DNA from: Endomicrobium sp.
Lineage (GTDB): Bacteria; Elusimicrobiota; Endomicrobiia; Endomicrobiales; Endomicrobiaceae
DNA length: 33,283 nucleotides
Assembly (NCBI GenBank): GCA_031290155.1
Contig: JAITOB010000009.1
Coordinates: 1 to 33,283 of the forward strand
Direction of reading: 5' to 3'
Positions 26,148-32,953 of the stretch are shown piece by piece. Below the pieces are notes generated by a model, which made no database searches, was not told the origin of the DNA, and saw nothing but the letters and a program-made list of their open reading frames with translations. The stretch's first letter is position 1; the number at the start of each line of letters is the position of its first letter. A program made the translations under genes and the position numbers.

Positions 26148-26797
26148 GCCTAATTAAAATTTAAGATATGCAAAAACAACACAATTTGTATTATTATTTT
26201 TAAAAATATTACTGTAAACATAAAGAAATTTAATATCTAATACATTAAATGAGGGCAAACAATGTTATAATTTTTTAATCTAAATCCGAATTTTTAGCGA
26301 AGCCAAAAATGTTGCAATAAATAAATACTTACGTTTTAAATCTCTAAAATAATAAATAATATTTTTATATTTGCTGAATTTATCTTATATTTAGACAATA
26401 ATATAACTTTAATTTAAGCATGTCAAACGAATTTATATTATGTCAAGGTATGATGTCAGAGAGCTGATTTTATATGCTTGTACAAAAAATTGTTTTAAAT
26501 TTTGTTAATTAAGAAATAATATAAGGTTATTTTATTGCATTTAAAATAATGTTAGATTGTAGTTTCTTAAAACTCTGAAAATAACGTAAATAACCCCAAA
26601 ATCTTAAAAGCCTTTTAAAGCTGTTTATTAATGAATTTTTTTAATAATTATTAAAAAAACAATAAATATTTAAAGAATAGCGTATAATACAAAAAAGCAG
26701 ATGCTAAATTAGACAGTATCCTTTTCGTGATTATATTTTAAACTGGATATATATCTTAAAGTGTAACAGCTATATAATATAATATGGCTGCAGATAT
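26148..26797. other. About 650 bases without recognisable genes
   Basis: Very AT-rich sequence with stops in all frames. I saw no DnaA-box cluster, tRNA or repeat array. Notable are a perfect palindrome at 26636-26659 and an isolated TATAAT at 26683-26688 without a good -35. It is likely decayed intergenic DNA between the porin and the trp relics. Confidence 0.5.
26636..26659. repeat. 24-bp perfect AT-only palindrome
   Basis: Seven T, then AATAATTATT, then seven A: a perfect self-complementary sequence in the gene-free region. It may be a weak bidirectional termination structure or chance in AT-rich DNA. Confidence 0.6.
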
Positions 26798-26825
26798 TTG
26801 ACTTCTGTTAATTTTATTTTACAAT
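26798..26825 (+). promoter_or_regulatory. Promoter candidate of the trp relic operon
   Basis: TTGACT at 26798-26803 and TACAAT at 26820-26825 are separated by 16 bases, each matching five of six sigma-70 consensus positions. It is the best promoter pair in the gene-free stretch and lies about 380 bases before the trpE start, leaving a long leader. Confidence 0.45.
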
Positions 26826-26831
26826 ATAGCA

Positions 26832-27203
26832 AAAGTAATAAAGAAGGTTAAACAAGATAAAATTGTATTTTGACGATACTCAGTTGTAGACAATGAGTGT
26901 GGTTTATGTTTGTGTCCCTGCGTATTTTGTAGAATAAACTGTAGAGACTCGCTGAAAAGGGTTACGGCTTATGCTTGTTAGCAGCAGGCTATGTTTTGTC
27001 CTGAGTGTTTTTTTACATATTGTAAGCGTTATTTATTATCGGTATTTCAATGCTCTTTAAGGAACATTAAGGAACATTGGTTTTGTTTTGGCTGTTCCTG
27101 CGCATCATAAACGCTTAAAATTTCAAACGTCTGTTCTTGACATATTTCTTATGTCATGGACTGGCGTTTTTTTATTGCTAATCATCTTAACTTAGAGGCG
27201 CGA
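26832..27203 (+). promoter_or_regulatory. Long trp leader with attenuator-like end
   Basis: The leader before trpE contains a hairpin at about 26972-26988, a 39-codon ORF at 26991-27110 (Cys- and Phe-rich, one Trp codon), a tandem 10-base repeat TAAGGAACAT at 27058-27077, and a terminator at 27126-27173. The GGAACA in each repeat copy can pair either with TGTTCC (27093-27098) or with TGTTCT in the terminator's left arm (27132-27137), a possible switch. No T-box sequence and no run of Trp codons are present. Regulation by tryptophan is inferred from position only. Confidence 0.4.
27126..27173 (+). terminator. Attenuator-like terminator before trpE
   Basis: The inner stem TGACATA/TATGTCA (27138-27144 with 27150-27156) and the outer AACG/CGTT close a long imperfect hairpin with a 5-base loop, directly followed by a seven-T tract ending at 27173. 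It stands 30 bases before the trpE start codon, where an attenuator is expected. Confidence 0.7.
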
Positions 27204-27540
27204 ATGATTAAACCTTCACTAAAAGAGGCGAAAAGGTTTTTTAAAAATTACACAGTAGTGCCTTTATGTGTGGAAATTTTTTCGGATATCAGAACCCCCG
27301 TTGAAATACTTAAAATTTTTATGTCGGAAAACAAAAATGTTATTCGCTAGAAAGCGTTGACAATAGCGAAAGCGGCGAGAGTTGGGGGGGGGAGAAGATA
27401 TTCTTTTATCGGCTGTGATCCAAAGCTTATAGTCAAATGTAACAATAATAAAGTTTTTGTAAGCGACGGCAAAGAAGAAAAATAATAACAGATGACCCTA
27501 TAAAAATATTAAGAAATATTATTTCAGAGTATAAAATTCC
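27204..27540 (+). pseudogene. trpE: Anthranilate synthase component I relic (5' fragment)
   Basis: The start ATG 27204 with GAGG upstream opens MIKPSLKEAKRFFKNYTVVP, then EIFSDIRTPVEILKIF. The reading frame then breaks near 27348 (TAG); the next frame gives LESVDNSESGESWG, and after a nine-G run another gives RYSFIGCDPKLIVKC. A last shift near 27481 leads to [20 protein letters not shown]. These are the TrpE N-terminal domain motifs, covering only about 110 of 450-500 residues. The chorismate-binding domain is gone; homology stops at about 27540, where a trpD fragment begins. Confidence 0.85.
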
Positions 27541-27625
27541 GCCGTATGTTTATATATGTTTTATAATAACTTAACGCTGAAACAGTGTTTAAAAATAGCG
27601 CAGGAAATGATTGACAGTAAAAAAA
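27541..27625 (+). pseudogene. trpD: Anthranilate phosphoribosyltransferase 3' relic
   Basis: Read in the frame of the following trpC fragment, this stretch gives AVCLYM, then [18 protein letters not shown]. This resembles the C-terminal end of TrpD (ALY..AG..LKEG...A.E.IDSGKA). If correct, one deletion removed the end of trpE, trpG and nearly all of trpD. It is read open into trpC. The assignment rests on about 25 residues, so it is tentative. Confidence 0.55.
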
Positions 27626-28301
27626 GAGGCTTTAAAGAAAAAAAGAATTTTTCTCTTTTTGAAGCAGTATTGTCAAAAGTAGGCATAAACTTTATATGTG
27701 AAGTAAAAAAAGCATCTTCGTCAAAAGGATTAATATCTAATGATTTTAGGTATAAGGAAATTGCTTTAAAATATGAGCAGGCAGTCGCCGCTGCGATTTC
27801 AGTTCTTACCGAACCTGATTTTTTCTTGGCAGCGCAGAATACTTGCGGGAAATAAAAAATATTGTAAAGCTACCCATTTTACGTAAAGATTTTATTATAG
27901 ATTTTTATCAGATATACAAATCAAAAATTATAGGCGCGGATGTGCTTCTTTTAATCTGTTCTATTTTATCTAAAGATATTTTAGAAGAATTTTTGGAAAC
28001 GTTGCTAAAACTAGGAATGTCTTGTCTTGTTGAGGCGCATGACGAGAAAGAAATTAATACAGCTTTAGAAGCCGTCGCAAAAATAATAGGCGTGAACAAT
28101 CGCAGTCTTAAAACTTTTGAAGTCGATTTTAATAACAGTATAAAACTGCGTAAACTTGTGCCAAACGACAAGATTTTTGTTTCAGAAAGCGGAATTAAAA
28201 CCAAAGAACATAAGACATACTTAAAATTAAATAATATCAATGCCGTTTTAATAGAAGAAGAACTTATTAAAGGAGTTGAAAAGCTGAAATTATGTTTTTG
28301 A
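27626..28301 (+). pseudogene. trpC: Indole-3-glycerol-phosphate synthase relic
   Basis: Family motifs are clear: [25 protein letters not shown], then in another frame [35 protein letters not shown] and KIFVSESGIKT. The frame breaks at a run of six T (27819-27824): seven T would give the expected [11 protein letters not shown]. The usual first 30 or so residues are missing; the preceding bases look like trpD. The final VLIGE glycine is Glu. The enzyme would have closed the indole ring in tryptophan synthesis. Confidence 0.9.
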
Positions 28302-28330: not shown

Positions 28331-28856
28331 ATGTCAAAAATAAAAATATGCGGACTTAAAAGCGCAGCAGATATCAATTTTGCAAATATTGCAAAACCTG
28401 ACTATATTGGTTTTATTTTTGCCGAAGTTAAAAGAAAAATAGATTTTAACGCAGCGTTAAAATTTAGATATTTACTTAATAATGAAATTAAATCAGTCGG
28501 CGTTTTCGTAAATGATAAAATTGAAAATATTGTTAATTTGCATAAAAACAAAACTATAAATTTAGTCTAGCTTCACGGCGATGAAGATAAAATTTTCAAT
28601 ACTGAAACAGCCGCCGATTTTATACTTTTTGATTCTAAACATGGAGGCAGCGGAAAAGTTTTTGACTGGGGATTGCTTAAGAAATATAAAAAACCATTTT
28701 TTTCTTGCTGGCGGATTAAACAAAGACAATATAGAAACAGCTGTAAAAAAGATAAATCCTTGTTGCGTTGATTTAAGCAGCGGTATTGAAACCGAAGGAG
28801 TAAAAGATTTAAACAAAATTATTGAAATAATAAAAATTGTAAGAGGTATAAAATAA
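28331..28856 (+). pseudogene. trpF: Phosphoribosylanthranilate isomerase relic
   Basis: It begins MSKIKICGLKSAADI and DYIGFIFAEVKRKI, typical TrpF. A TAG at 28568-28570 stands where INLVQLHGDE expects Gln, a single C-to-T change. After HGDEDKIFN about 25-30 residues are missing before ADFILFDSKHGGSGKVFDW. A seven-T run (28697-28703, six expected) shifts the frame; the other frame continues FFLAGGLNKDNIETAVKK and DLSSGIETEGVKD to the stop at 28856. Three independent lesions make this a clear pseudogene. Confidence 0.9.
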
Positions 28857-29948
28857 TGCCGAAAGGAAGATTCGGTATCTATGCGGTCAGTACATTCCAG
28901 AGACGCTGATGAGCGCAATAAACGAGTTTGAAGCGGCTTATAATCATTTAAATAACGAACAATTTAACAAAGAGCTTGCCTTTTTACTTAAGAATTATGC
29001 AGGGAGACCGTCTAGATTATATTATGCTAAAAACGCAACAGAAAAACTCGGAGGCGCAAAATATATTTAAAAAGAGAGGATTTAAACCATACGGGTTCGC
29101 ATAAAATAAACAATGTTTTAGGGCAGACTTTGCTTGCCAAAAAATGGGCAAAAAAGAATTATAGTGGAAACCGGAGCGGGACAGCGCGGTGTTGCAGCCG
29201 CTACTTCTGCTGCGCTGCTTGGTATGGAATGTGAAATCTTTATGGATGAGGATACTACTCAAAGACAAGCTTTGAATGTTTTCAGAATACAGCTTCTTGG
29301 CGCAAAAGTTCATAGCGTTAAAAACGGCACAAAAACTTTAAAAGATGTCATAAACAAAACGATGAGATAGTGGACAAGAAGAATTGACGATACGTTTTAT
29401 GTTGTAGGTCCGGTAATGGGGCCTCATCCGTATCCTCTGGTTGTAAGAGATTTTCTTCAGAGCGTTATAAGCAGAGAAATAAAAGAGCAGTTATTTGAAA
29501 AAGAAAATATTCTACCGTCTGCAGTTGTTGCCTGTGTCGGAGGCGGTTCAAACTCAATAGGCGTTTTTATAATTTTATAAACGATAAAGAAGTTGAGCTT
29601 ATCGGTTGTGAAGCCGCAGGCAGAGGCATTGACACTTTTGAAACCGCAGCTACAATTGCAAAAGGAAAGCTTGGAATATTCCATGGGAAATCATATTTTG
29701 TCAGATAGAAAATGGGTAGATTGCGCCTGTATATTCATTTCTGCGGGGATTGGATTATCTGGTATAGGCCGGAACACGCATATCTGCACAGCATAAAAAG
29801 AGTGTGGTATGTTTCGGTTACTGATGATGAAGCTGTAAAAGCATTTGAATTTTTGTCAAAAACAGAAGGAATTATTCCCGCAATAGAATCCGCTCATGCA
29901 GTGTATTGCGCAATGATTGCCAGGTATAAAGGAAAGGAGTGGATATAA
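28857..29948 (+). pseudogene. trpB: Tryptophan synthase beta relic
   Basis: It starts directly after trpF with [10 protein letters not shown]; one missing G near 28883 breaks GGQYIPE. Other frames recover [28 protein letters not shown] (the PLP Lys kept), [19 protein letters not shown] and NAFRIQ-like text, [24 protein letters not shown], and [18 protein letters not shown]. Lesions include shortened A runs at 29058-29061 and 29139-29144, a TAG at 29368-29370 for Glu, a shortened T run at 29564-29568, and a TAG in place of Gln in ENGQIAPVY (near 29720). The conserved GQH is GQR. Non-functional. Confidence 0.93.
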
Positions 29949-30767
29949 ATGAATAACAACCGTTCTTCTTTTGCTTCCTTTTATTAAAAAGTGAAACGAG
30001 TATTTCTGAAATATTTAAAAATAAAAAAGTTCTAATAACATATCTTACGGCCGGGGACCCTTCTCTTGATAAAACCGAAGACTATATATTGGCGTTGGCT
30101 GAAAATGGAGCCGATTTAATAGAAATAGGCATACCTTTTTCAGATCCTATAGCGGAAGGAGAAACTATACAAAATGCTATGTCAAGAGCATTGTCAAAAA
30201 TATAAATTTAGATTATACTTTTAATATGGTTGTAAACGTCAAAAAAATCAAAAATCCCTCTTATGTTTATGACATACTTAAATCCTTTATTATCCTACGG
30301 ATATGAAAGATTTTTTAAAAGATGCAGTCAGACAGGAATAAGCGGCATAATTATTCCGGATATGCCTTTTGAAGAACAATGCGAAATCAAAGAATTTACA
30401 GACAAATATGGAATAACTGTTATTAATCTTATTGCGCCTACATCCGAAGAAAGAGTAAATATTTTGCCAAACCAAGCAAAAGGTTTTATATACCTTGTTT
30501 CATCGCTCGGCGTTACCGGTACGAGAAACAGGATAACGACGGATATCAGCGCTATAGTTTCAAAAATAAAAAAAAGTAACCGATGCTCCGATCGCCGTAG
30601 GGTTTGGAATTTCTCCTACCGAACAGGCAAAAAATATGACAAGATGTGCCGACGGCGTAATAATTGATAGTTCTGTTGTTAAAATAATCGCAGAACATAA
30701 AGAAAATGCTGCTGCCAAACTTGCAAAATATGTTTCAGATATCAAAAAATCTATATGCGGCTTATAA
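29949..30767 (+). pseudogene. trpA: Tryptophan synthase alpha relic
   Basis: The ATG right after trpB hits a stop within 13 codons; the neighbouring frame gives [48 protein letters not shown]. It breaks at an A run (30196-30200) and again near 30250; MFMTYLNPLLSYGYERF, GIIIPDMPFEE and YLVSSLGVTGTR follow. An expanded A run (30568-30575) shifts the last frame, DAPIAVGFGISPTEQAK to the stop at 30767. The catalytic Glu of [11 protein letters not shown] is present, but no continuous frame remains. Confidence 0.92.
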
Positions 30768-32290: not shown

Positions 32291-32953
32291 TCATTTAAAA
32301 ATTGCATTATTTATTGTGATTTTGGAACTTTTAATAATATTTGAATACCATTCGTTTATAATCAAATTTATTTTTGTATTGATCAGAGATTCTTTTGTTG
32401 CTGTCGGATCCTGTTTAAGAGAATTTTCCAATTCATAATTCCACAATCTCACCGAGTAAGAAATAATATCTTTAACTTTACCGCCTGCAATTTGTTTTTT
32501 TCTCATTACTTCATATTCTTTCGGAGTCATTTTTATAGAATTTAAAAATAAATAATATTTACGTATATCAAAAATATTATTATTTCTAAACGTTTCTGAG
32601 TTTTGTAAATCAGTTTTTAATTCTTCGTCGGCAACTGTAATATTGTAAAGTTTTGACTGCTGATAAAAAATTTCTTCCTGTATCAACGCCTGAACAATCT
32701 TCATCTTTAATTCGTTTAAATCGTTTTTAGTCGGTTCGCCGTTTATTGTTTTTTTGTACATTTCAACTGAGTGGGTATAAAATGAATTGAATAGTTTCAT
32801 AGATATTTTATTTTTATTGACGGTAACAGCGGTTTGAGGATTGTATTTACGCCCGAACAAATAATCGCCAAAGCCCATAAAAGCGCCGCCGATAAAGGCA
32901 ACAATTGTTGCAATAAAAATTATACGCGTATGTTTTCTTAAAAAATTCATCAT
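32291..32953 (-). CDS. Membrane-anchored SurA/PpiD-type N-terminal protein
   Basis: Probable periplasmic folding factor or its remnant. The 220 residues start MMNFLRKHTRIIFIATIVAF, with one membrane segment (residues about 10-34). Then follows the SurA N-terminal-like fold: VTVNKNKISMKLFNSFY, LIQEEIFYQQSKLYNITVAD and RKYYLFLNSIKMTPKEYEV. No parvulin (peptidyl-prolyl isomerase) domain is present, so it is much shorter than PpiD (about 600 residues). It is the only intact gene in the last 6 kb. ATGs at 32953 and 32950 are both possible. It could be a complete small protein or a 3'-truncated PpiD. Confidence 0.7.
   Translation of the reverse strand: MMNFLRKHTRIIFIATIVAFIGGAFMGFGDYLFGRKYNPQTAVTVNKNKISMKLFNSFYTHSVEMYKKTINGEPTKNDLNELKMKIVQALIQEEIFYQQSKLYNITVADEELKTDLQNSETFRNNNIFDIRKYYLFLNSIKMTPKEYEVMRKKQIAGGKVKDIISYSVRLWNYELENSLKQDPTATKESLINTKINLIINEWYSNIIKSSKITINNAIFK

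Follow-up and report, generated by a model that had tools for sequence, protein, structure and literature searches.

A probable pseudogenized tryptophan T-box riboswitch preceding a pseudogenized trp operon in Endomicrobium

Introduction

What kind of element controls, or once controlled, the trp genes on contig JAITOB010000009.1 of an Endomicrobium sp. genome (GCA_031290155.1)? We analyzed a stretch of 33,283 nt from this contig, here called the window, in which a leader with several conspicuous elements precedes trpE. Two exact tandem copies of TAAGGAACAT (27058–27067 and 27068–27077), each containing GGAACA (at 27061 and 27071), are followed by TGTTCC (27093–27098), by TGTTCT (27132–27137) within the left arm of a hairpin, and by a T7 tract ahead of trpE. 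An initial sequence-only reading had correctly recorded all of these elements and had interpreted them as a fossil attenuator of a different type of trp control, without a T-box, in which the repeat copies could switch the terminator.

T-boxes, whose mechanism and spread are described in the portion of PMC2494555 available to us, are a known alternative for such a position. We present the leader here in comparison with trpE leaders from the same genus, from the same family and from the wider phylum.

Results

Trp T-boxes precede trpE in the genus

Among 41 genomes of the same genus, 12 contained a chorismate-binding gene; in 11 of these the gene was a trpE of the trp type, and its leader could be read. 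G022, with a broken chorismate-binding gene 31–33% identical to the TrpE of relative G023 and no leader, was excluded. Second chorismate-binding genes in G042, G054 and G055 (L041, L043 and L045), which gave no T-box match, were also kept out of the leader set. Remnants of trpC were present in G005, near a contig end, and in G013, with no leader on the stretches taken. In nine of the 11 genomes, trpC and trpE were located on one contig (in G043 in part only), and in G010 and G019 on separate contigs.

Nine of the 11 leaders represent textbook Trp T-boxes, comprising a UGG specifier, a core and a terminator with a 5′ arm complementary to the core. In these nine, the specifier place is CAAATGGACC, the core follows the consensus AAGGTGG-N-ACC-RCGG (with G for the first A in G019) and the terminator 5′ arm is UCCGUCCUU. 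The UGGN bulge of a T-box core pairs with the 3′ NCCA end of the tRNA. Scores of the nine leaders against the Rfam family RF00230 ranged from 57.8 to 85.3 bits (E values of 2.4e-12 to 1.9e-19 per genome). None of the 41 genomes exceeded the RF00230 gathering score of 93, and Rfam at gathering thresholds gave no match on 11 relative loci. Such sub-threshold but clear matches are in line with PMC12452182, which, in the portion available, describes Rfam thresholds as too stringent for the T-box. Two weak RF00230 matches, in G042 (C10, 27.0 bits) and G011 (C11, 21.7 bits), fell within an ORF that, by eye, is UvrC and were taken as chance.

The structural assignment was assessed by counting pairs across the alignment. 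Antiterminator pairs were present in 81 of 81 cells of the nine leaders, compared to 35–56% when the partner was slid by 1–3 columns; as this segment is nearly invariant among the relatives, it provides no covariation support. Terminator pairs were present in 92.5% of 134 cells (27–56% when slid). Covariation in the terminator was weak: a single pair showed a compensatory A-U/G-C exchange, and 28 of 500 shuffles reached the score. Contig BNVV01000057.1 from Endomicrobiia bacterium MS502-33, which encodes the nearest named TrpC to that of the window (72%), likewise features a core-like AAAGTGGTACCGCGG and a terminator directly before trpE. By this TrpC similarity, the bacterium of the window most likely belongs to the Endomicrobiia (Elusimicrobiota).

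The window leader is homologous to these T-boxes

An nhmmer profile of the nine intact leaders gave one significant match in the window, a decayed Trp T-box leader at 26946–27176 on the forward strand (E 9.4e-17; 54.3 bits, within which the composition bias is 21.1 bits). The profile was built without the window sequence, though the underlying alignment included it. The second-best match, at 5.7 bits, was the complement of the same terminator hairpin. Core and terminator were also combined in a covariance model, again built without the window, which scored 53 bits at 27097–27174, 27 bits on the hairpin complement and otherwise at most 17.3 bits in the window. In a genus scan with this model, the nine intact leaders scored 89.0–108.6 bits, the window 53 bits, and the leaders of G054 and G011 52.3 and 29.7 bits, respectively. 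The window did not reach the RF00230 gathering cut-off; Rfam detected nothing in it at the gathering score and, at E values up to 10, four chance-level matches, none of them to a T-box.

The case for homology comes chiefly from the terminator, from stem II/III and from the location ahead of trpE. The window leader qualifies as a degenerate descendant of intact T-boxes and not as a functional member of the family. With Trp T-boxes in nine of 11 same-genus leaders and a homologous leader in the window, neither the proposed absence of a T-box nor the proposed different type of trp control was borne out.

The sensing half has decayed and the terminator has been retained

To localize the decay, we counted alignment columns at which the window differs from all three of its nearest relatives (G048, G023 and G056). 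In the stem I part, 76 of 169 columns differed. The presumed remnant of stem I and the specifier loop (26791–26945, forward strand), placed by MAFFT alignment only, is nearly unrecognizable, and at the place aligned to the specifier the window contains no UGG, the window alignment being weak in this part. For stem II/III, the count was 38 of 103 columns. The remnant of the T-box core (27102–27119, forward strand), identified by alignment and covariance model, carries a 5-nt gap and substitutions relative to the nine intact leaders, and 13 of 23 columns differed, including the gap. A core with the UGGN bulge, present in nine of 11 same-genus trpE leaders, was not found in the window. For the antiterminator segment, the folding energy is 0.0 kcal/mol in the window versus −9.2 to −12.4 kcal/mol in the nine intact leaders, and no antiterminator alternative to the terminator was detected there. 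Because core and specifier have decayed, the T-box is invisible from the window alone.

The intrinsic terminator has a different status. Its hairpin (27125–27169, forward strand) is intact, with 15 of 15 modelled pairs unbroken and an energy of −20.5 kcal/mol versus −13.1 to −26.6 kcal/mol in the nine intact relatives. Together with the T7 tract at 27167–27173, apparent from the sequence, it forms an intrinsic terminator (27125–27173) ahead of an amino acid gene, here the trpE remnant, as is typical of T-boxes. With the antiterminator at 0.0 and the terminator at −20.5 kcal/mol, the off state has therefore been kept and the on state lost.

The trp operon of the window is truncated and frameshifted

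The trp operon from relative G023 served as tblastn query against the window, and all matches lie on the forward strand. A trpE fragment (27204–27556) covers residues 1–116 of 491 in two frames, with pieces of 59% and 39% identity to the G023 TrpE. It is followed by a trpD fragment comprising residues 292–321 of 341 (27535–27624; E 1e-13) and by trpC from residue 27 (27619–28271), trpF (28331–28850), trpB (28885–29915) and trpA (29987–30755), each of the last four in two frames. For trpG, no tblastn match was obtained in the window at E values up to 1e-3. The operon is, thus, truncated and frameshifted. Complete tryptophan biosynthesis is reported for five other Endomicrobium genomes in the portion of PMC8809381 available to us. 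Further downstream in the window, a peptidylprolyl isomerase-like ORF of 220 aa (32291–32953, reverse strand) covers only positions 1–168 of a 626-position model and is possibly truncated too.

Taken at the level of sequence, the locus very probably represents a pseudogenized Trp T-box riboswitch heading a pseudogenized trp operon. The part of the initial interpretation that saw a fossil attenuator of a dead trp operon, with descent from a terminator/antiterminator system, is supported. Compared to an RF00230 Trp T-box, the window leader is alike in homology, in its place before trpE and in its terminator, but lacks the core, the specifier, a recognizable stem I and an Rfam match. By analogy with the T-box family, the intact leader of the relatives would read tRNA-Trp through its UGG specifier. 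Uncharged tRNA would stabilize the antiterminator, formed by the T-box core and the terminator 5′ arm, while charged tRNA would leave the terminator free, so that transcription would stop before trpE. In the window, because specifier and core are lost and the terminator still folds, a transcript arriving from upstream should stop at around 27173 at any state of tRNA charging.

Is the retained terminator under selection?

The contrast between terminator and sensing half raises a rival explanation for the same decayed T-box, in which the terminator is maintained by selection as a constitutive off-lock that silences the dead operon. Consistent with this idea, only 6 of 49 hairpin columns set the window apart from all three nearest relatives, compared to the 13 of 23 in the core (post hoc Fisher test, p 1.5e-4), the 38 of 103 stem II/III columns (p 0.002) and 23 of the 34 columns that separate the hairpin from the start codon (p 3e-7), and all modelled pairs of the terminator are unbroken. 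The first 20 trpE codons, however, are equally well kept (8 of 60 columns changed, p 1.0). As the hairpin is conserved no better than the start of trpE, special retention is unneeded, and the counts lend no support to selection on the hairpin. The data also derive from a single lineage, and in G054, which has an open trp operon, the terminator likewise outlasts the core, so that an operon need not be dead to show this pattern. We, therefore, consider an off-lock under selection unlikely and retain the reading of a decayed T-box with a surviving terminator.

The tandem repeat is a lineage-specific insertion

The TAAGGAACAT array (27058–27077, forward strand) is the sole tandem 10-mer in the 33-kb window, the filter having returned three adjacent registers of this one array; any tandem 10-mer occurred in 1 of 20 first-order Markov sequences. 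In the alignment with the 11 relatives' leaders, the repeat copies stand out as inserted sequence within the stem II/III region. Both TAAGGAACAT and GGAACA are missing from all 11 leaders. The initial reading had proposed to compare leaders of related genomes for covariation and had named relatives with intact trp operons but without these elements as the outcome that would count against it. This is the situation in the genus, where none of the 11 leaders holds the repeat and nine hold a T-box.

Folding of the window leader (27058–27180) gave −35.6 kcal/mol, with a z score of −4.83 and none of 200 shuffles as good. The leader, thus, folds beyond chance. Repeat copy 1 forms a hairpin (27060–27099, forward strand; −11.9 kcal/mol) with the stretch containing TGTTCC, the counterpart in the alignment of the 3′ strand of the relatives' stem III; this hairpin is likely fortuitous.

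According to the rival explanation proposed initially, the GGAACA repeats toggle between TGTTCC in this upstream hairpin and TGTTCT in the terminator arm, constituting an attenuator unrelated to T-boxes. The complementary stretches that it needs are present, and in the predicted ensemble the pairing with TGTTCC holds for copy 1 (probability 0.95–1.0), but not for copy 2 (0.002). Pairing with TGTTCT, on which the toggle depends, has a probability of 0.0 for both copies, and with either copy forced onto it the energy becomes −20.3 or −20.2 instead of −35.4 kcal/mol, a penalty of ~15 kcal/mol. Contrary to the suggestion of mutually exclusive structures, the predicted fold places the upstream hairpin and the terminator in separate stretches; they can therefore coexist and do not compete. 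Moreover, in 18.5% of 5,000 Markov sequences a 6-mer complementary (counting G-U pairs) to both a middle stretch and the terminator arm arose by coincidence. Together with the absence of the elements from the relatives, these results make a repeat-based switch highly improbable. The duplication, unseen in the relatives examined, would instead be a local 10-bp event that plays no part in regulation.

TRAP-controlled leaders carry about ten spaced GAG/UAG triplets, and ribosome-mediated attenuators respond through a leader peptide whose ORF contains Trp codons; both types share a terminator before trpE with the window. Either type has a negligible probability here, as the sole short leader ORF examined (27050–27070), the one point in favor of a leader peptide, comprises six sense codons without a Trp codon, the TRAP-like repeats that the initial reading had suggested looking for are absent (no GAG and no TAG triplet in 27058–27173) and nine of 11 relatives have a T-box.

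Degenerate cores ahead of open operons

The two same-genus leaders outside the textbook set belong to G011 (L005 and L178) and G054 (L036 and L177). In both genomes, all seven trp genes are open; for trpG, one stop at residue 209 of the 212-residue query corresponds to a slightly earlier end. Their T-box cores are degenerate, with no UGG at the specifier place. No T-box match was obtained in L036 or L005 at E values up to 0.01, and the RF00230 scan of the genus likewise gave none at the trpE leaders of the two genomes. The terminator is strong in G054 (−22.7 kcal/mol) and weak in G011 (−8.2 kcal/mol), and the segment equivalent to the antiterminator folds otherwise in both (−8.2 kcal/mol in G054 and −6.0 kcal/mol in G011).

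Discussion

Our analysis removes a candidate for a new trp regulator and identifies in its place a known regulator in decay, novel only in where it occurs. Together with those of G011 and G054, the window leader offers three readable cases of riboswitch loss during genome reduction. A broader model, which we put forward tentatively and regard as doubtful, would be that Trp T-boxes of Endomicrobium-like bacteria lose their tRNA-sensing half to decay but keep the terminator, ahead of a dead operon as in the window or of an open one as in G054. Termination at such leaders might then be fixed and tRNA-independent, throttling or silencing the operon, with regulation being lost ahead of the pathway.

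Across the phylum, RF00230 at E values up to 0.001 matched 41 of 198 genomes, of which 10 belong to the same genus, 29 to other members of the same family, one to the same order and one elsewhere. Among 15 phylum T-box loci inspected, a core followed by a TrpE-like start was recognized by eye in eight from the same family, seven of which contain AAATGGACC in stem I. In two further loci (L144 and L150), TrpE-like sequence is present and the T-box itself lies outside the stretch read. We infer that a Trp T-box before trpE is likely the ancestral state of the family. These data document Trp T-boxes before trpE across an Elusimicrobiota family. The other five of the 15 loci (L139, L140, L141, L142 and L146), in another genus of this family, carry T-boxes of a second kind that lead into a gene resembling acetolactate synthase by eye; four of them score over the Rfam cut-off, and L146 scores 87.4 bits.

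Trp-related T-boxes outside Firmicutes are known from Dehalococcoides (Chloroflexi), according to the portion of PMC2494555 available. The Dehalococcoides Trp T-box described there matches the present one in regulator type, in its place before trpE and in lying outside Firmicutes, but belongs to another phylum; Table 3 of that study, covering 242 genomes, names no Elusimicrobia in the same portion. In the open-access full-text literature searched, we found no article joining T-boxes with Elusimicrobiota or Endomicrobium, or riboswitches with Endomicrobium. For T-boxes with Elusimicrobia, the same literature yielded PMC9413887 only, which, in the portion available, mentions Elusimicrobium for HisR only.

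One further T-box in the genus concerns another amino acid. In G041, which gave no trpC and no chorismate-binding match, locus L055 (G041:C4:141265-141498, minus strand) contains a T-box of 59.1 bits with UAC, a Tyr codon, at the specifier place, as read by eye from the Rfam alignment. It precedes broken pieces of a gene of the tryptophanase/tyrosine phenol-lyase type, and a Tyr T-box on a β-eliminating lyase would be unusual.
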